This document shows positions 18,995 through 25,466 of a stretch of DNA of 64,000 nucleotides, one piece after another; within the stretch, counting starts at the first letter, position 1; every line of letters begins with the position of its first letter. The stretch lies in the NCBI GenBank assembly GCA_015066225.1, contig SVOT01000004.1, forward strand, positions 124,001 through 188,000. Reading direction: 5' to 3'. The translations under genes were made by a program, and so were the position numbers. A model generated the notes under the pieces. That model made no database searches. It was not told the origin of the DNA and was given only the letters and a program-made list of their open reading frames with translations. This DNA is from Oscillospiraceae bacterium (lineage in GTDB: Bacteria > Bacillota > Clostridia > Oscillospirales > Acutalibacteraceae).

Positions 18995-19828
18995 TTATTT
19001 TTTTCTGAAAATATAAGTAATGAAAAATACTGCTGCTGAAATTGTAACGATTGTTGCCCCGGCTGAGGTATCGAAATAAAACGAGCTTATAAGACCCGAT
19101 ATGGAGCAGACGAACGATATCAGAACAGACAAAGCAAGATATTGCCTTGAATTTTTCGCAACGTTTCTTGCACTTGCGGCGGGAAGAATCAAAAGGGAGT
19201 TAATCAGAAGAATTCCCACCCATTTTATTGAAATCATTACAACAACCGCAACAAGAACAACGAAAAGGTTTTCATAAAGTGAGGTTTTTATGCCTCTTGA
19301 TGCCGCAAGCTCACGGTTAACTGAAATTATAAGGAGCTTGTTGTAAATAACGCACCAGACACCAACAACCACAATAAGAGTTATAAGAAGGCCGATTATT
19401 TCATCGGGTGAAACACTGAGCACGTCGCCAACAAGGTAGCTGCTGTATTTTGAAAAGCCACCGCCGTAGGAAAGCACCAGCAAACCAACAGCAACACAGG
19501 TCGATGAAAACACACTGATTACCGTGTCTGACGAAGCGTTGCCTTTATTTTTCACCCTTGTTATGACCAAGGCAAGAAAAACGCCGAAAGCCAACAGAGA
19601 TATCAACTGGTTATGTATGCCGAGAACAACACCAAGGGCGATACCCGTAAATGCGCTGTGACCCAACGCATCGGAGAAAAAAGCCATCTTGTTGTTTACC
19701 GCCATTGTTCCGAGAATACCCATCAACGGAGCAATCAGCATAACCGCCAGCAAGGCGTTTATCATAAATTTATAGTCTGCCCAGGAAAAAGGTACGACAG
19801 ACGAAAAAAAGCTGTATATCACGTTCAT
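18995..19828 (-). CDS. znuB: Zinc ABC transporter permease
   Basis: 277 aa, about eight membrane segments, ABC-3 permease family (MIAPLMGILGTMAVNNKMAFFSDALGHSAFTGIALG near the start, VGILLINSLLILPAASARN later). It forms the channel for zinc or manganese. GGAGG precedes the ATG, which overlaps the end of znuC by four bases. Confidence 0.88.
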   Translation of the reverse strand: MNVIYSFFSSVVPFSWADYKFMINALLAVMLIAPLMGILGTMAVNNKMAFFSDALGHSAFTGIALGVVLGIHNQLISLLAFGVFLALVITRVKNKGNASSDTVISVFSSTCVAVGLLVLSYGGGFSKYSSYLVGDVLSVSPDEIIGLLITLIVVVGVWCVIYNKLLIISVNRELAASRGIKTSLYENLFVVLVAVVVMISIKWVGILLINSLLILPAASARNVAKNSRQYLALSVLISFVCSISGLISSFYFDTSAGATIVTISAAVFFITYIFRKK

Positions 19829-20577
19829 TTCTTTTCCTCCTTTTCGCCAAGGCAGAAAAAGCTGTTTTTGAATTCGCCCGAATCGAAAACCTCTTGGGCT
19901 GAGCCTTTTTTCAAAACAGATTTATTTATAAGAAGAACGTTGTCGGCATAATCTCTTACAATTCCCAAATCGTGCGATACCATAGCTATCGCCATATGAT
20001 AATTATGCCTGAGATTATCAATTGTTTCATAAAATCTTTCACTACCCAAAGCATCCACACCCGAAACGGGCTCGTCAAGAATGAGAAGCTCCGGCAATGG
20101 GTGAAGAGCATTGACCAGCATAACTCTTTGAAGCTCGCCACCGGATAAAGCACCCAGGGGCCTTTTCTTCAAATCACGGCAACCGACCATATCAAGAGCA
20201 TCATCAATCTCTTTAATAAGCTTTTTGTTTTTTCTGAAGCATATTGGTGAATTAGTACGCCCTGTCAATAAAAAGTCCTCAACGCTTATGGGGGCAGATT
20301 TGTCGAAATCAAGGTGCTGTGGCACGTAGCCTATTGTTATGTTCCCGATTTTTTCGCCATCGTGGGATTCAAAAGAAACGCTACCCTCATGACGTATTTC
20401 ACCGAGAATTGCCTTTATGAGCGTTGTTTTACCGGCACCGTTAACGCCGATAACAGCCGTCAGCTCACCGCAATGAAGCTCAAAGGAAACGTCTGAAAGC
20501 AGGACCTCACCGCCTTTTTTAACGCCGATATTTTCAATTTTTATTTTGCAGAGTCCGCATCCGTTTCCTGACGACAT
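19825..20577 (-). CDS. znuC: Zinc ABC transporter ATP-binding protein
   Basis: 250 aa. Walker A GVNGAGKTT, signature LSGGELQRV, Walker B LLILDEPVSG and the switch His in MVSHDLG. The ATG sharing bases with the znuA stop (TGATG) is preferred to the GTG three bases earlier because AAAGGCGG is then seven bases away. It powers the ZnuB permease. Confidence 0.9.
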   Translation of the reverse strand: MSSGNGCGLCKIKIENIGVKKGGEVLLSDVSFELHCGELTAVIGVNGAGKTTLIKAILGEIRHEGSVSFESHDGEKIGNITIGYVPQHLDFDKSAPISVEDFLLTGRTNSPICFRKNKKLIKEIDDALDMVGCRDLKKRPLGALSGGELQRVMLVNALHPLPELLILDEPVSGVDALGSERFYETIDNLRHNYHMAIAMVSHDLGIVRDYADNVLLINKSVLKKGSAQEVFDSGEFKNSFFCLGEKEEKK

Positions 20578-21494
20578 CACTTCACCGCCTTTAAAATAGT
20601 TTCGTAGTTTTGTTTCATTGTATCCTCGTAAGCACTCAGTTTTCTGTCACCGCTGATTACAGGATTGAGTTCATATATTTCGGATCCCGTTTCACGGGCA
20701 AGAATTTCTGCCGCCGAGCCTTCATACCCGGGCTCTGTGAAAAGAGCCTTTATTTTTTCATTTTTTATCAGCTCACTAAGTTCAGCAAGCTCCTTTGCAG
20801 GCGGCTCGCCACCGTCATCCGTTTCAATGGTTTCGGAAATTACGAAGCCCGTTTCAACTGCCAGATATTCATAGGCACCGTGAAAGGATACTGCCTTTTT
20901 ACCTTTAACCTGTTCTGAAAATTCATCTCTTGCTTTTTCAAGCTCCGCCAATCTCAGAAGATATTTCTCAAAGTTTTCGTTTATTTCGTCCTCATATTGG
21001 GGAAAATTCTCAATTATACCGTTCTTTATGTTTTCTATCTGTTTTTTTGCATTTTTAACCGAAAGCCATATATGAGAATTTTCATCGTGATGATGGTGAG
21101 AAGATTCCTCAGCACCTTCGTGATGCTTATGATTGCACAGCACTTCTATGCCCTCTGAAGAATCAACAACTTTTAACCCGTCAACACCCTCAAAAACATC
21201 CTCCATAAAGGTTTCCATGCCTGCACCGTTCATCACGAACAAATCTGCATCATCGAGAAGCTTAACGTCCTTTGCGGTTAACGAATAATCGTGAAGACAG
21301 CCAACGTTCTGTTGCGCCAGACTTTCCACCCTGAAATCATCAATACCATCCACGAGATTCGCCGTGAAAATATATATGGGGTAAAAAGAAGCAACAAGAA
21401 CATATCTGTTTTCTTTATCAAGGGGGGCACCACATGAGCAGCACCCCGCAGCAATTATCACAACCGCCAACAGCACACAAATAAGTTTTTTCAT
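20577..21494 (-). CDS. znuA: Zinc-binding lipoprotein of the ABC transporter
   Basis: 305 aa, cluster A-1 solute-binding protein. Signal peptide with lipobox IIAAGC (Cys ~17), so it is lipid-anchored. The acidic, His-rich loop CNHKHHEGAEESSHHHHDENSHIW (~120-145) is typical of zinc rather than manganese binders. Conserved metal ligands include the His of SHIW and SFHGAYEY. Zur operators were not recognised; the genes are fed from upstream (24 bases after the PPC protein). Confidence 0.9.
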   Translation of the reverse strand: MKKLICVLLAVVIIAAGCCSCGAPLDKENRYVLVASFYPIYIFTANLVDGIDDFRVESLAQQNVGCLHDYSLTAKDVKLLDDADLFVMNGAGMETFMEDVFEGVDGLKVVDSSEGIEVLCNHKHHEGAEESSHHHHDENSHIWLSVKNAKKQIENIKNGIIENFPQYEDEINENFEKYLLRLAELEKARDEFSEQVKGKKAVSFHGAYEYLAVETGFVISETIETDDGGEPPAKELAELSELIKNEKIKALFTEPGYEGSAAEILARETGSEIYELNPVISGDRKLSAYEDTMKQNYETILKAVK

Positions 21495-21518: not shown

Positions 21519-23120
21519 TCACCCTACACTAACTCTGAAGTAATAAGGGATCTCAGATTCATACATACCCGTTTCTATCTTGACGTAGTAGGTACCCTGT
21601 GACAGCTTAACGTCGCCTGTTGAAATAACTCCGTCATCGGGAGAGGATTCTATTGAATACAGCGCTTCGTTATCTTCGTCAACAATGCTTGCAATCCAGG
21701 AAATTGAACCGTCTGGCACTATTTCGTGACCAAGCTCAAGGTTAACAGTCATATCCTCGGTGATTTCGAGTTTATAATAATCCTCGTCAAAAATCATATC
21801 CGATGAAATAATTGCACCGTAATAATATTCGTTGAAGCTGATTGTCTGTGCCCTCTTCATAACGTTGTTGGGCTCTTTTTCGAAGTTTTCTTTTGCGGTG
21901 AAGTTCCACTGTATTGAATACGTTGCAGAATTGTGTGCAAGAGAATCCGCATCAATAACAATGTAGTAATCGCCCGCGGCAAGCCCCAGGCTGTAAACAG
22001 AAACGTCCTTGTCCTTCCATTTTGACATCTTCTTTACTACCTGATAATATTCGCCGTTATCATCCTGCTTCATAAGTCTGATATTCCAGCCGTTTTTGTC
22101 GCCTTCTATTTCGCTGTGCTTGAAATAGAATTCAACGTAGCCATCGGCGGGAACAGTAAATTTATAATAATCCTTATCAAGGCTGAGGAGCTTTTCTGCA
22201 AGAGCACCTGTTATTGCAATACCCTTGGGAAGGTCTGTTGCTGTTTCAGGTGTGTCGTTCATTTCAAACTCGTGGTTTTTCGCCTTGTCTGCGGCTATGA
22301 GCACGCTGTAGGTATCTGCAATAGGTGTCTGTGATTCAACCTTGATGTAATACGTGCCTGCTCTCAGACCGATTGTACCCGTTTTGAGATGAACATCCGT
22401 AAGAAGTGAACGGTAATCGCAGACAATCTGCTCATCCTCTGTGAGAATCTTGATATTCCAGCCCGATGTGGGTAAGGTAAGGTCATCGTGAATAAAGGAT
22501 ATGTCAATACAGCTGTCGTATTCAAGCTCGAATCTGTACCAGTCAACATCCGTGCCCTCTTTGAGCTGTGACGAGGACGCATAGAAAGATTCACCTACTT
22601 TTACTTCATTTGAAGCCTCTTTTATGTTGTTGGGCTCTTTCTCGTAAGCCGGAGTTGCCGTGAAAGCGGTCACAAGGGTGAAATCACCGAAAATAATATC
22701 CACTCCCGGTTCAACAACCACAACATAGGTGCCAACAGAAACACCTGTTTCGCCCCAGCTTGAGGTTGTTTCATTCCAGAAGGATTCAAAATATGTTATC
22801 TCCTGATATGTGTTTTTTTCGCCCTCTATTATTTTATAAAGAGTCAGTACGTAACCGCATTTAACCGTATCGAGAAGGTTATCGTGCTGGAGCTTAACTA
22901 CAAGAGCACCCGGTTTTTCAACCTCAAAAATAAACGCCTCGTAATCCTCTTTTTTCTCAATTGTACCGACAACGGTTGAGTTGCAGGTTATTCGCATTGG
23001 TGTGTCGGTGTTAAAAAGGGAATCCTCAACTGTGAGGGATATGCCGATAACACCCAGAACGGTTACAGCCGTCAGAACAGCCGCAACAATCGCTATTATC
23101 CTGATTCTTATTTTACTCAT
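21519..23120 (-). CDS. Secreted protein of four PPC-like beta domains
   Basis: 533 aa from the ATG at 23118-23120 (AGAAGGAG upstream); a frame 30 codons longer runs through the flavodoxin-like gene and lacks a ribosome binding site. One N-terminal hydrophobic helix (~6-28). Then about four domains of ~115-125 residues, each beginning with an acidic E-x-EPNN/E-x-ND-T motif (~160, ~284, ~410) and containing DxDWYRFE or KDYYKFTV-like strands, as in bacterial pre-peptidase C-terminal (PPC) domains. No catalytic domain is attached. Such domains bind surfaces or carbohydrates; here they may form an extracytoplasmic adhesin or binding rod. Its start overlaps the upstream gene's end by eight bases. 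Confidence 0.72.
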   Translation of the reverse strand: MSKIRIRIIAIVAAVLTAVTVLGVIGISLTVEDSLFNTDTPMRITCNSTVVGTIEKKEDYEAFIFEVEKPGALVVKLQHDNLLDTVKCGYVLTLYKIIEGEKNTYQEITYFESFWNETTSSWGETGVSVGTYVVVVEPGVDIIFGDFTLVTAFTATPAYEKEPNNIKEASNEVKVGESFYASSSQLKEGTDVDWYRFELEYDSCIDISFIHDDLTLPTSGWNIKILTEDEQIVCDYRSLLTDVHLKTGTIGLRAGTYYIKVESQTPIADTYSVLIAADKAKNHEFEMNDTPETATDLPKGIAITGALAEKLLSLDKDYYKFTVPADGYVEFYFKHSEIEGDKNGWNIRLMKQDDNGEYYQVVKKMSKWKDKDVSVYSLGLAAGDYYIVIDADSLAHNSATYSIQWNFTAKENFEKEPNNVMKRAQTISFNEYYYGAIISSDMIFDEDYYKLEITEDMTVNLELGHEIVPDGSISWIASIVDEDNEALYSIESSPDDGVISTGDVKLSQGTYYVKIETGMYESEIPYYFRVSVG

Positions 23121-23673
23121 CTTCTGAACTCCTTCTAAGAAGCGTTTGAAATTCGTTAAGTGAATTTTCATAATCGGGCTCAGTATCCGTGTTTTTACAA
23201 AGGACCGCACCCGTCAAGGAAATATTGAGAATGGTAAAGGAGCGTTCAAGCTGTTTTTTCACGTATGAAAACTCATCCTCGCCATCTCTGCCGGCGGTAC
23301 AAAGCAAAATTGCCTTACGCCGTTTTTTTATTGGTTGAATTTTTTCGTTTTTGTAAAAAAGATTAAAATAAACCTGAAATCTGTCAACAAGAGCTTTCAG
23401 CGGTGATGAAAGCCCGCCATTATAAATTGGGCTCAGAAAAACAATAACGTCTGTTTTTTCAAATAAATCAAAAAATTCTTTCAGGTCATCAAACACGCAC
23501 TCGCCGATTTCTGCACATTTGCCACAGGCAATACAAGGTTTGATTTGGTTTTCGTAGCAATCAAAAACCGCTACATTTTTAAAGCCTGTGTTTTTCAATG
23601 ATTCTGAGCAAATTGTGTTTGTAAAGCCCTCTTTTCTGGGCGACCCGTTAATAATAAGCAAATTTCCTGCCAT
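23113..23673 (-). CDS. Flavodoxin-like NAD(P)H-dependent oxidoreductase
   Basis: 186 aa. N-terminal NGSPRKEGFTNTI is the FMN phosphate-binding loop; CYENQIKPCIACGKCAEIGECVFDD (~40-62) and VFLSPIYNGGLSSPLKALVDRF (~77-98) are typical of iron-sulfur flavoprotein-like or NADPH-dependent FMN reductases with a C-x2-C-x2-C-x5-C segment. Cytoplasmic electron transfer is likely, partner unknown. The ATG abuts the stop of the ATCase-like gene (TAAATG). Confidence 0.75.
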   Translation of the reverse strand: MAGNLLIINGSPRKEGFTNTICSESLKNTGFKNVAVFDCYENQIKPCIACGKCAEIGECVFDDLKEFFDLFEKTDVIVFLSPIYNGGLSSPLKALVDRFQVYFNLFYKNEKIQPIKKRRKAILLCTAGRDGEDEFSYVKKQLERSFTILNISLTGAVLCKNTDTEPDYENSLNEFQTLLRRSSEDE

Positions 23674-24726
23674 TTATTTCAACTCTTGTCCGCAATATTT
23701 ACAAATCTTTCTGCCGTCTGACGTTTCAAAAAACAACGACGGAAGATATTTTTCAGTTGACGTTATGCAATCCTCTTTATCGCAACAAACATCGTGTGTG
23801 GATTCTTCGTAATCAGGCTCAATCAATCTGCCCGCTTTGCCGCTGACAGTTTTGAGAATAGCCGCCATACAAGCATCCACGTACCTGTCGAACATATCAA
23901 AGTATTTTGCTCTGCTGTCATTGTCAACAGTATAGTCAAGCTCGTCACCCCTCGGAAACGGGTGAAGAATAACAAGGTCGGGCTTTGCAGAAAGGAGCAT
24001 TCTTTCATCAAGAACAAAGTTGTGCTTTCTGGCGTTAAACATTATTTCGCTGTCAAAACTCTTTGACGTTACAGGAGTCATATAAAGAACGTCAAGCTCA
24101 CCGATAACGTCGAAAAGATTATCAAACACCGTGAAGTTCTTTTCACGTTTATCCATAAGATTAACGTAATCATCCGAAACAGGCTTGCCGTTAACCGAGA
24201 TAAAATAAAACTCATTGCCCTTGTAAAGGTTAAGGCACTGTAAAAGGCTTTTCACAAGTGCATTATCGCTGAAATCGCCCAGAAAGCCGATTTTCATATT
24301 TGAAACGTGATTTTTCTCAATCCACACAGATGAAAAATCACAAAGTGTTTTTACGGGGTATGCTCTTTTACCGTCACCGGCATTTATGACGGGAACCCTT
24401 GCATAAAGAGATGCCGCCCTTGCCGCACCCTTCTTGGGGTGTGAAATAGCAATAACATCTGCATATGACGACATAGCTATAACGGCATCCTTGAGGCTTT
24501 CACCCTCAACGCTTTCAAACGGAATAACGCTGCCACCCATTCTGAGAACCGCTGTTCTGAACGCCGACTCGCTGTTGCGGTCTTTTTCCCAAAATGCACT
24601 TACAAGAGTTTTCTTATTCATCTCTGTGGAATAAAAACCCCTGTTATCTTTCATAAACGTCATAAGGTTAAGGGCTTCTCGCAGACCTTCTCTGGAAAAA
24701 TCTGTTATATCAAGAAATCTTTTCAT
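23674..24726 (-). CDS. Aspartate transcarbamoylase homologue lacking active-site residues, fused to a PyrI-type zinc tail
   Basis: 350 aa from ATG 24724-24726; an in-frame GTG two codons earlier has better spacing from AAGGTGA and may be used. The ATCase fold aligns over residues 1-295 (retained: NAGDG, HPFPRGDE). Against E. coli PyrB, STRTR becomes DRNSE (49-53), Arg105 becomes Ser95, His134 Tyr123, Gln137 Lys126, Arg167 Ala156, Arg229 Pro218, Gln231 Thr220, and the Ser80/Lys84 loop is shortened. Catalysis as ATCase is therefore not expected. Residues 315-345 carry C-x4-C-x21-C-x2-C with NCI/KYC-like context, as in the PyrI zinc domain; the PyrI nucleotide-binding domain is absent. First gene of a long minus-strand run. 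Confidence 0.78.
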   Translation of the reverse strand: MKRFLDITDFSREGLREALNLMTFMKDNRGFYSTEMNKKTLVSAFWEKDRNSESAFRTAVLRMGGSVIPFESVEGESLKDAVIAMSSYADVIAISHPKKGAARAASLYARVPVINAGDGKRAYPVKTLCDFSSVWIEKNHVSNMKIGFLGDFSDNALVKSLLQCLNLYKGNEFYFISVNGKPVSDDYVNLMDKREKNFTVFDNLFDVIGELDVLYMTPVTSKSFDSEIMFNARKHNFVLDERMLLSAKPDLVILHPFPRGDELDYTVDNDSRAKYFDMFDRYVDACMAAILKTVSGKAGRLIEPDYEESTHDVCCDKEDCITSTEKYLPSLFFETSDGRKICKYCGQELK

Positions 24727-24783
24727 TGCCACAATAATCACCTTCGTTTTCAAAAATGATGACACCTATCCATTATCCATAAG

Positions 24784-24813
24784 ATTATATCATATATTAC
24801 ATATAAATTACAA
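24784..24813 (-). promoter_or_regulatory. Promoter of the ATCase-like gene and the run below it
   Basis: Minus strand TTGTAA (24808-24813), 18-base spacer, TATAAT (24784-24789). The last strong promoter seen before the whole 24.7-13.7 kb same-strand series. Confidence 0.65.
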
Positions 24814-24923: not shown

Positions 24924-25295
24924 AAGTAAAAAGCTCCCGACACAATCGGGAGCAAATTTTACTTTTGTTCTGCGCTAAAAGCAACACAAATTTAATTTTT
25001 TGGTTTTTGATGCAGAAGGCGGCTTTGCTGTGCCGACTGTGTATAAAGATACTCCGAGGCCGGCAAAACGACTAAAAAGTAAAAAGCTCCCGACGCAATC
25101 GGGAGCAAATTTTACTTTTGTTCTGCGCTAAAAGCAACACAAATTTAATTTTTTGATTTTTGATGCAGAAGGCGGCTTTGCTGTGCCGACGGTGTATAAA
25201 GATACTCCGAGGCCGGCAAAACGACTAAAAAAGTAAAAAGCTCCCGACACAATCGGGAGCAAATTTTACTTTTGTTCTGCGCTAAAAGCAAAAAA
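24924..25295 (-). repeat. Structured intergenic repeat, locus B (two full units plus a partial, period 153-154)
   Basis: Directly behind the ferredoxin stop, in its direction. Hairpins with stem GCTCCCGA/TCGGGAGC lie at 25239-25262, 25085-25107 and 24931-24953, each extended by AAAAGTAAAA/TTTTTACTTTT arms. Between them come CGGAGTAT-CTTT-ATACACCG (second hairpin), GCACAGCAAAGCCGCCTTCTGCATC and TGCTTTTAGCGCAGAACAAAAG. GCAGAA and TTCTGC could pair to close a larger loop around the first hairpin. The units are nearly identical. The flanks match locus A, the stem does not. A 76-codon frame here is a repeat shadow. Confidence 0.85.
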
Positions 25296-25466
25296 TTAAG
25301 CCTCAACAGGAGCACCAACGGGGCAAGAACCTGCACAAGCACCGCAATCGATGCAAGTATCAGCATCGATAACATAGATGCCGTCGCCTTCAGAGATAGC
25401 CTCTACGGGGCAATCTGCTGCACAAGCACCGCATGAAATGCAATCTTCAGTAATCTTGTATGCCAT
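25296..25466 (-). CDS. Small 2[4Fe-4S] ferredoxin
   Basis: 56 aa, just under usual ORF-length cut-offs. Two CxxCxxCxxxCP clusters (CISCGACAADCP and CIDCGACAGSCP), the clostridial ferredoxin pattern. A low-potential electron carrier for anaerobic oxidoreductases. AGGGAGG lies about nine bases before the ATG. Single-gene transcript with its own promoter and a row of hairpins behind it. Confidence 0.95.
   Translation of the reverse strand: MAYKITEDCISCGACAADCPVEAISEGDGIYVIDADTCIDCGACAGSCPVGAPVEA

Follow-up and report, generated by a model that had tools for sequence, protein, structure and literature searches.

Here, we report that a minus-strand gene in a 64,000-nucleotide stretch of a contig from an Oscillospiraceae gut bacterium (the whole stretch is called the window below) seemingly encodes a non-catalytic aspartate transcarbamoylase (ATCase) scaffold, i.e., a pseudoenzyme that arose from the lineage's own former ATCase and keeps a second role. 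We put the probability of this reading at roughly 60%. The degenerate gene is carried by 15 of the 22 genomes of the genus, 13 with a close type that includes the window's own sequence and two with a deep type (G009, G019); identity to the window protein is 60-68% for the 12 other close sequences and 44-46% for the deep ones. Counting against a scaffold, six of the 22 genomes are without the gene, and loss of the fused gene is the common outcome. The features of the gene are the following.

24784..24813, minus strand: sigma-70-like promoter match, TTGTAA-18-TATAAT, with TG ahead of the -10 (alignment by eye)
23674..24732, minus strand: degenerate ATCase-fold protein with a PyrI-type zinc tail; GTG start (an ATG at 24726 would give 350 aa)
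24571..24582, minus strand: equivalent of the STRT loop (S52-T55), here DRNS, placed by alignment
24430..24432, minus strand: Lys99, equivalent of E. coli Glu109 (zinc-domain contact), Lys in 15/15 degenerate sequences
24346..24366, minus strand: equivalent of the HPTQ loop, here RAYPVKT, with R-A-Y-P-V-(K/R) in 13/13 close sequences
23677..23799, minus strand: zinc tail with Cys315/320/342/345, assigned from the cysteines and from relatives

The open reading frame spans 23674-24765 on the minus strand with its best start at the GTG at 24732, and because this GTG sits behind GAAGGTGAT, a ribosome-binding-like site, 23674-24732 is a good gene call. The PyrB-like fold that the first-pass annotation had proposed for the product is borne out by two Pfam domains above cut-off (OTCace_N, PF02729, 77.8 bits; OTCace, PF00185, 62.7 bits) and by a PDB sequence alignment in which residues 7-297 of E. 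coli chain 1at1_A align to the protein at E 5.1e-43; the two-domain carbamoyltransferase fold is predicted with confidence from these matches. The D90 residue (E. coli D100), the core glycines, and the INAGDG segment are kept as in PyrB. On the NCBIfam ATCase model, TIGR00670, the window protein reaches 161.3 bits, below the cut-off of 236.95, and two canonical fused relatives score 333 and 337.

Most close orthologues have a similar -10 upstream followed by GGATAATGG (alignment by eye). Roughly GATATAAT then GGATAATGG, or a near form of it, recurs by eye upstream of most of them (L053-L061 and the window), and this element could be a regulator site or a start-site context. Rfam at the gathering threshold gave no RNA element within 14000-36000. 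Three near-identical terminator-bearing copies, ~153-154 bases apart, occupy 24930-25300 (stems at 25260, 25106, and 24953, minus strand) and sit between the degenerate ATCase gene and a small ORF (25296-25466, minus strand, 56 aa), which has two CxxCxxC...CP clusters and by eye resembles a 2[4Fe-4S] ferredoxin.

The annotation had also stated that the carbamoyl-phosphate and aspartate ligands are replaced and the 80s loop is shortened, and alignments with the E. coli chain and with canonical relatives confirm both. In E. coli numbering, the carbamoyl-phosphate loop carries S52>D, T53>R, and R54>N, accompanied by R105>S, H134>Y, Q137>K, R167>A, R229>P, and Q231>T, and the 80s loop has six residues fewer than that of the canonical relatives listed. 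R54, R105, H134, R167, R229, and Q231 are present in 100% of the canonical sequences (100-101 sequences) and in 0/13 close sequences, and Q137 in 39/39 and 0/13, respectively. The two deep sequences keep R229 and have lost R54, R105, H134, Q137, R167, and Q231, and these last six are missing from all 15 degenerate sequences. Little is left of the catalytic loops in the close sequences (E50 in 5/13, T55 in 3/13, S80 in 2/13, K84 in 1/13); S80 and K84 of ATCase come from the neighbouring chain.

The replacements are themselves conserved in part. H134 has become Tyr, T136 Val, and Q137 Lys or Arg, each in 13/13 close sequences, and two residues before H134 the His of canonical sequences is Arg in 13/13. 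A check proposed at first pass, whether the DRNSE and YPVK segments are conserved, came out divided: Y-P-V-(K/R) stands in all 13 close sequences, but DRNSE is kept only partially (D 12/13, R 10/13, N 9/13), and the deep sequences differ, reading L-P-C-K or L-P-C-D at the HPTQ equivalent. The HPFPRGDE segment, described as a retained scaffold motif, is indeed present in the window protein but only partly kept among relatives, in that P266 varies (Q 7, P 3, H 1, and G 1 among the 12 close sequences with a letter there) and L267 is mostly F.

Passages of a 2015 review name SxRT, HPxQ, and HxLP as motifs common to all known transcarbamylases and note, too, sequences without these motifs (PMC4581275). 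The window protein has none of the three: DRNS replaces SxRT, and R54 is found in 0/13 close, 0/2 deep, and 100/100 canonical sequences with a letter at the position; YPVK replaces HPxQ, with H134 and Q137 in 0/15 degenerate sequences; and HPFP stands where HxLP is expected, with F in 10 and L in 2 of the 12 close sequences with a letter at L267. The RxQxxER motif (R229, Q231) is likewise found in 0/13 close sequences. One may ask whether the protein is an enzyme with a new chemistry or a new substrate in a remodelled pocket, as polar residues are fixed or nearly so in the old active site, i.e., D49 in 12/13 and R121, Y123, K/R126, and N155 in 13/13. Such an enzyme is rather improbable given the loss of SxRT, HPxQ, and HxLP from the window protein (motif set from the part of the review cited above, PMC4581275) and the scarcity of S80 (2/13) and K84 (1/13) in the close sequences. 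The specific version raised at first pass, a transcarbamoylase with a new substrate, is unlikely with all three motifs gone, and judged from its substitutions the window protein would almost certainly carry out no carbamoyl transfer.

The window's genome (G000) has three genes of this fold, i.e., OTC, a canonical PyrB of 306 aa, and the window gene. The canonical pyrB, the search for which had been suggested as a check, is thus present elsewhere in the genome, followed by pyrI inside a pyr operon, where a minus-strand run reads dihydroorotase, carB, pyrK, pyrD, pyrF, pyrE, pyrB, pyrI (dihydroorotase called by TIGR00857 above cut-off; carB, pyrK, pyrD, pyrF, and pyrE named by sequence inspection). 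G000 does not need the window gene for pyrimidines; the gene lies outside the pyr operon, and its product is 36% identical to the resident PyrB. A separate PyrB was found in all 15 carriers, as contig-edge fragments in G015 and G016 (the 70-aa fragment of G015 was kept out of the alignments). As for the other genomes of the genus, G010 (95% complete) has a canonical fused ATCase with no separate PyrB found, G006, G008, G013, G017, and G020 have the separate PyrB only, and G004 (81% complete) gave no match to the fused gene or to a separate PyrB. For the six genomes that lack the fused gene, a tblastn search of the interval from PSP1 to the flavodoxin-like gene detected no remnant at E up to 10.

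In a 53-sequence tree (L064 was left out here and limited to its first 255 columns in the dN/dS comparison), the degenerate sequences form one group (100/100) that makes a supported split together with the fused gene of G010 (100/97), and the separate PyrB sequences of the genus belong to another lineage (99/98). Please note that the tree program warned of long branches that meet at the point of attachment of the degenerate clade. The ancestry is supported independently by gene order, as flavodoxin-like, PPC, and znu-type genes follow the canonical fused gene of G010 just as they follow the window gene. Because of the tree split and the gene order shared with G010, the window gene is most likely the former ATCase of the genus and not a duplicate of the present PyrB. 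The close and deep sequences have several changes in common, i.e., T53>R (10/13 close), E109>K, the 80s-loop deletion, and L267>F (10/12 close), which suggests that catalysis was lost before the close/deep split.

Pairwise dN/dS of the degenerate gene, calculated with our own Nei-Gojobori script, is 0.05-0.29 over pairs with dS < 2. The closest pairs are at 0.05-0.08, and PyrB from these genomes ranges over 0.02-0.13. Between G000 and G018 the degenerate protein is 65% identical and PyrB 84% (flavodoxin-like neighbour, 40%; ZnuA, 50%), i.e., the degenerate protein evolves faster than PyrB. There are 95 near-invariant canonical positions (97% or more, 101 sequences), and 37 of them are unchanged in the close sequences, including the four Cys, 32 have turned variable (about half in catalytic motifs), eight are fixed on another residue, and the rest are intermediate, while 42 formerly variable positions are now invariant in the close sequences.

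If the gene were redundant after displacement and in slow decay, kept by chance or for translational coupling to the flavodoxin-like gene, then its absence without remnant from six of the 22 genomes, its faster evolution than PyrB, the abutment of its stop on the next start, and the common loss of the fused gene elsewhere would all be understandable. However, dN/dS is far below 1, new residues are fixed in 13/13 close sequences, the four Cys are kept in 13/13 sequences with a tail, the gene is full-length in 13 of the 15 carriers (L063 ends at a contig edge and L064 is frame-shifted near a contig end), and the case is repeated in a second genus, which makes decay very unlikely; we consider the window gene, with good confidence, to be functional. 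The first-pass suggestion of a conserved pseudoenzyme is well supported by orthologues that do not vary randomly, purifying dN/dS, newly fixed residues, and a canonical pyrB elsewhere in the genome, the sequence comparison indicating that catalytic residues were lost while the protein stayed under purifying selection.

The annotation's description of the tail, PyrI-like with no nucleotide-binding domain, also agrees with the sequence: Cys315/320/342/345 have the spacing C-x4-C-x21-C-x2-C, and the allosteric domain PF01948 has no match in the window protein and is present in PyrI of the same genome. The PyrI_C model (PF02748) gives the window tail 17.4 bits, under the cut-off of 23.4, with the four Cys present, and the zinc tail is therefore assigned from its cysteines and from relatives scoring above the cut-off (canonical L067, 33.9 bits, and L069, 31.7; degenerate L237 of the second genus, 30.2; the deep L065 has 21.4). 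All four Cys are invariant in the 13 aligned degenerate sequences with a tail. The tail was not newly acquired, since PyrB-zinc fusions are common among ATCases of the order. Such fused ATCases, with no nucleotide-binding domain, are widespread there (82 distinct sequences; L067-L072, L079-L092, L129-L193), and they raise the question of how a zinc domain works without the allosteric domain.

In the R state of E. coli ATCase, the regulatory chain is bonded through its Asn111 to Glu109 in the catalytic chain, according to passages of one paper (PMC6056424). The Glu109 equivalent is Glu or Asp in 71/82 canonical fused sequences, Glu in 19/19 separate PyrB, and Lys in 15/15 degenerate sequences. 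On the zinc side, the knuckle position preceding the second Cys carries Arg or Lys in 60/82 canonical fused sequences and Arg in 18/18 PyrI found (at one of the 19 loci, G012, PyrI was not found beside PyrB); in the 13 degenerate sequences with a tail it is Asp in 10, Glu in 2, and Asn in 1, with Asp in 10/11 of the close ones. At the Asn111 position itself, the two deep sequences keep Asn, and all 11 close sequences with a tail have Lys or Arg. The contact charges thus reverse those of the canonical pair and of the PyrB/PyrI pair of the genus, which disfavours docking on true PyrB and favours self-docking; it looks like a reversed salt bridge that would tie the tail to its own protein rather than to PyrB. 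The idea offered at first pass, docking on a true PyrB through zinc-domain contacts, finds no support in this reversed pair, where Lys (15/15) faces Asp or Glu (12/13). Within the canonical fused sequences there is a hint of covariation of the pair (Fisher p 3e-6 over 82 sequences), but on the tree the pair changed independently only twice, and a sign test is not significant. As for the trimer, the Arg65-Asp100 interaction is described in the same passages as important for the stability of the E. coli trimer (PMC6056424); D90 is kept in 12/13 close sequences and R62 is Arg in 10/13, so that this contact appears largely kept, judged from two positions of which R65 is poorly conserved even in canonical sequences (Arg in just 68).

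The charges also bear on whether the protein is a regulatory pseudo-subunit of the resident ATCase, which would enter PyrB trimers or compete with PyrI through its zinc tail and so tune pyrimidine synthesis. Such a role would fit the same fold, the same type of zinc domain, and the separate PyrB in 15/15 carriers, and it has a precedent in Pseudomonas, whose ATCase requires a pseudo-dihydroorotase subunit (PMC7053772). We consider it unlikely, because the zinc-contact charges are reversed versus PyrB (E 19/19) and PyrI (R 18/18 found) of the genus, identity to the resident PyrB is 36%, and the gene is outside the pyr operon; please note that the charge argument is inapplicable to the degenerate proteins of the second genus, which keep the canonical zinc-contact charges. 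A scaffold apart from the resident enzyme is the reading we prefer for the window protein. Its neighbours, all downstream of it, are the following.

23113..23673, minus strand: flavodoxin-like / FMN_red protein, its start abutting the stop of the degenerate ATCase gene
21519..23210, minus strand: secreted-looking protein with a weak, sub-threshold PPC-domain match; the listed ORF overlaps the flavodoxin gene and the true start is probably further in
18995..21494, minus strand: genes of a znuA-znuC-znuB-type metal ABC transporter, lying downstream in the majority of relatives examined

That the gene heads a run with a flavodoxin-like protein, as noted at first pass, is seen at 15/15 testable degenerate loci, with the flavodoxin-like gene directly downstream at 13/13 in the window's genus and 2/2 in the second genus (two loci of the former end at contig edges, L063 was not counted, and L241 has just 835 bases downstream). 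The same gene stands next to the canonical fused gene at 9/23 loci tested, and since it adjoins canonical fused genes too, the ATCase-flavodoxin pair seems to predate both catalytic losses. The flanking genes, PSP1 upstream and the flavodoxin-like gene downstream, are still in place in the six genomes that lack the fused gene. We rejected a dependence of the flavodoxin-like gene on the ATCase gene, as it is kept in 6/6 genomes lacking the latter; any dependence would run one way. A zinc-acquisition link through znuACB was dropped, these genes being absent from the run of G009 and kept in genomes without the ATCase gene. The product of 21519-23210 (minus strand) is ~530-560 aa long, and in most of the examined genomes of the genus its gene lies next to the flavodoxin-like one.

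A second genus of the same family (11 genomes) has a comparable situation. G386 and G276 have a degenerate fused protein together with a canonical separate PyrB; their fused proteins read AVAT or AVAA for STRT and RPAR or RPCE for HPTQ, and RxQxER and HPLP are broken. In a tree of 40 sequences, a chosen subset, they cluster (100/100) with canonical fused genes from their genus and from close relatives. A single origin shared with the window clade is rejected on these sequences (AU p 0.0017, with a test that supposes the group to be named beforehand), i.e., the catalytic loss seems to have arisen independently in the second genus. Such a recurrence hints that the protein has a second role, so far hidden. 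The catalytic parts of the G386 and G276 proteins are 77% identical (dN 0.137, dS 0.77, dN/dS 0.18), their 43-residue tails, a short stretch, 98% (dN 0.010, dS 0.23), and the PyrB proteins of the two genomes 96% (dN 0.021, dS 0.51, dN/dS 0.04). This second case consists of two sequences, too few for newly fixed residues to be called. G337 has a canonical fused gene and a canonical separate gene, which is possibly an intermediate state before one copy dies; these are two apparently intact ATCases in one genome (L196, L198). G440 (85% complete) and G438 (64% complete) have the canonical fused gene only, and the other six of the 11 genomes have matches at separate-PyrB length only.

In the family sample, two ATCase-level matches (E 1e-40 or better) occur in 7/398 genomes, i.e., G000, G007, and G018 of the window's genus, G276, G337, and G386 of the second genus, and G224, which was rejected as a further case, both of its matches being pieces of one separate PyrB. 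In the order sample they occur in 5/395 genomes (E 1e-45 or better), one of them the window's; the four others were not counted as further cases, being fragments or, in G358, having an OTC-like second match (162 bits, 303 aa). More diverged dead copies could fall below these E thresholds. As far as examined, a dead fused copy is seen in two genera only, and genomes with a separate PyrB usually no longer have the fused gene; retention is thus rare, which is evidence against a broadly essential second role. In many genomes of the order, the only ATCase-level match is a fused PyrB-zinc protein, and some of these genomes have a flavodoxin-like gene behind it.

How might these observations fit together? 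We propose that a separate PyrB and PyrI in the pyr operon displaced the old fused PyrB-zinc gene in the window's genus, and that the fused gene, at the place it has in G010, lost its carbamoyl-phosphate site and part of the 80s loop before the 15 carriers diverged. Since then, purifying selection has acted on it, with new residues becoming fixed in the old pocket. The fused enzyme may have had a second, non-catalytic role, which was left over once catalysis was taken over. The protein probably still assembles into a trimer like that of ATCase and binds its own zinc tail through the charge-reversed contact, which would keep the dead protein apart from the resident PyrB/PyrI. Its function is probably that of a scaffold or a ligand sensor, perhaps exerted together with the flavodoxin-like protein, and a different anion may bind in its remodelled, basic pocket (R50, R121, Y123, K126). 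A wider version holds that the fused PyrB-zinc ATCase of the family is bifunctional, combining catalysis with a non-catalytic role tied to the flavodoxin-like protein, that dead ATCases have been born from it repeatedly, and that the contact was reversed in the window's genus against mixing with the live ATCase; this we hold only tentatively and think it doubtful as a whole, because the rarity of retention counts against it.

ATCase is a textbook enzyme, and two independent cases of displacement followed by retention without chemistry would make moonlighting of a core metabolic enzyme testable, with a natural before/after/without series in the canonical fused protein of G010 or G440, the dead sister, and the genomes without the gene. 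If the wider version is true, selection can keep a scaffold for a hidden role where another PyrB takes over the chemistry, and two such births are seen. By score, dead proteins could easily pass for ATCase in annotation.

We found no conserved, catalytically dead ATCase catalytic chain in the open-access literature, most subscription journals being outside the scope of this search. With PyrB (TIGR00670) the window protein shares the two-domain fold, a near full-length alignment, the core glycines, INAGDG, and D90, but the carbamoyl-phosphate and aspartate ligands are lacking. Its tail resembles the PyrI zinc domain (PF02748) in the C-x4-C...C-x2-C arrangement and the CIT-x-x-E motif, whereas it is fused to a catalytic-type chain, has no allosteric nucleotide-binding domain beside it, and has N111 of the contact changed to K/R in 11/11 close degenerate sequences with a tail. 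The fused PyrB-zinc ATCases of the order (L067, L069) have the same architecture and, in G010, the same genomic place, but they keep the catalytic residues and are mostly the only ATCase of their genome as far as searched. YgeW and UGTCase are, like the window protein, relatives with the ATCase/OTCase fold beyond the classical roles; in the review passages, however, both are counted as transcarbamylases, and YgeW structures show carbamoyl phosphate as substrate (PMC4581275). The nearest analogue within the pathway is the Pseudomonas pseudo-dihydroorotase, also a pseudoenzyme of pyrimidine synthesis, which differs in having the dihydroorotase fold and in being required for ATCase assembly and activity (PMC7053772).
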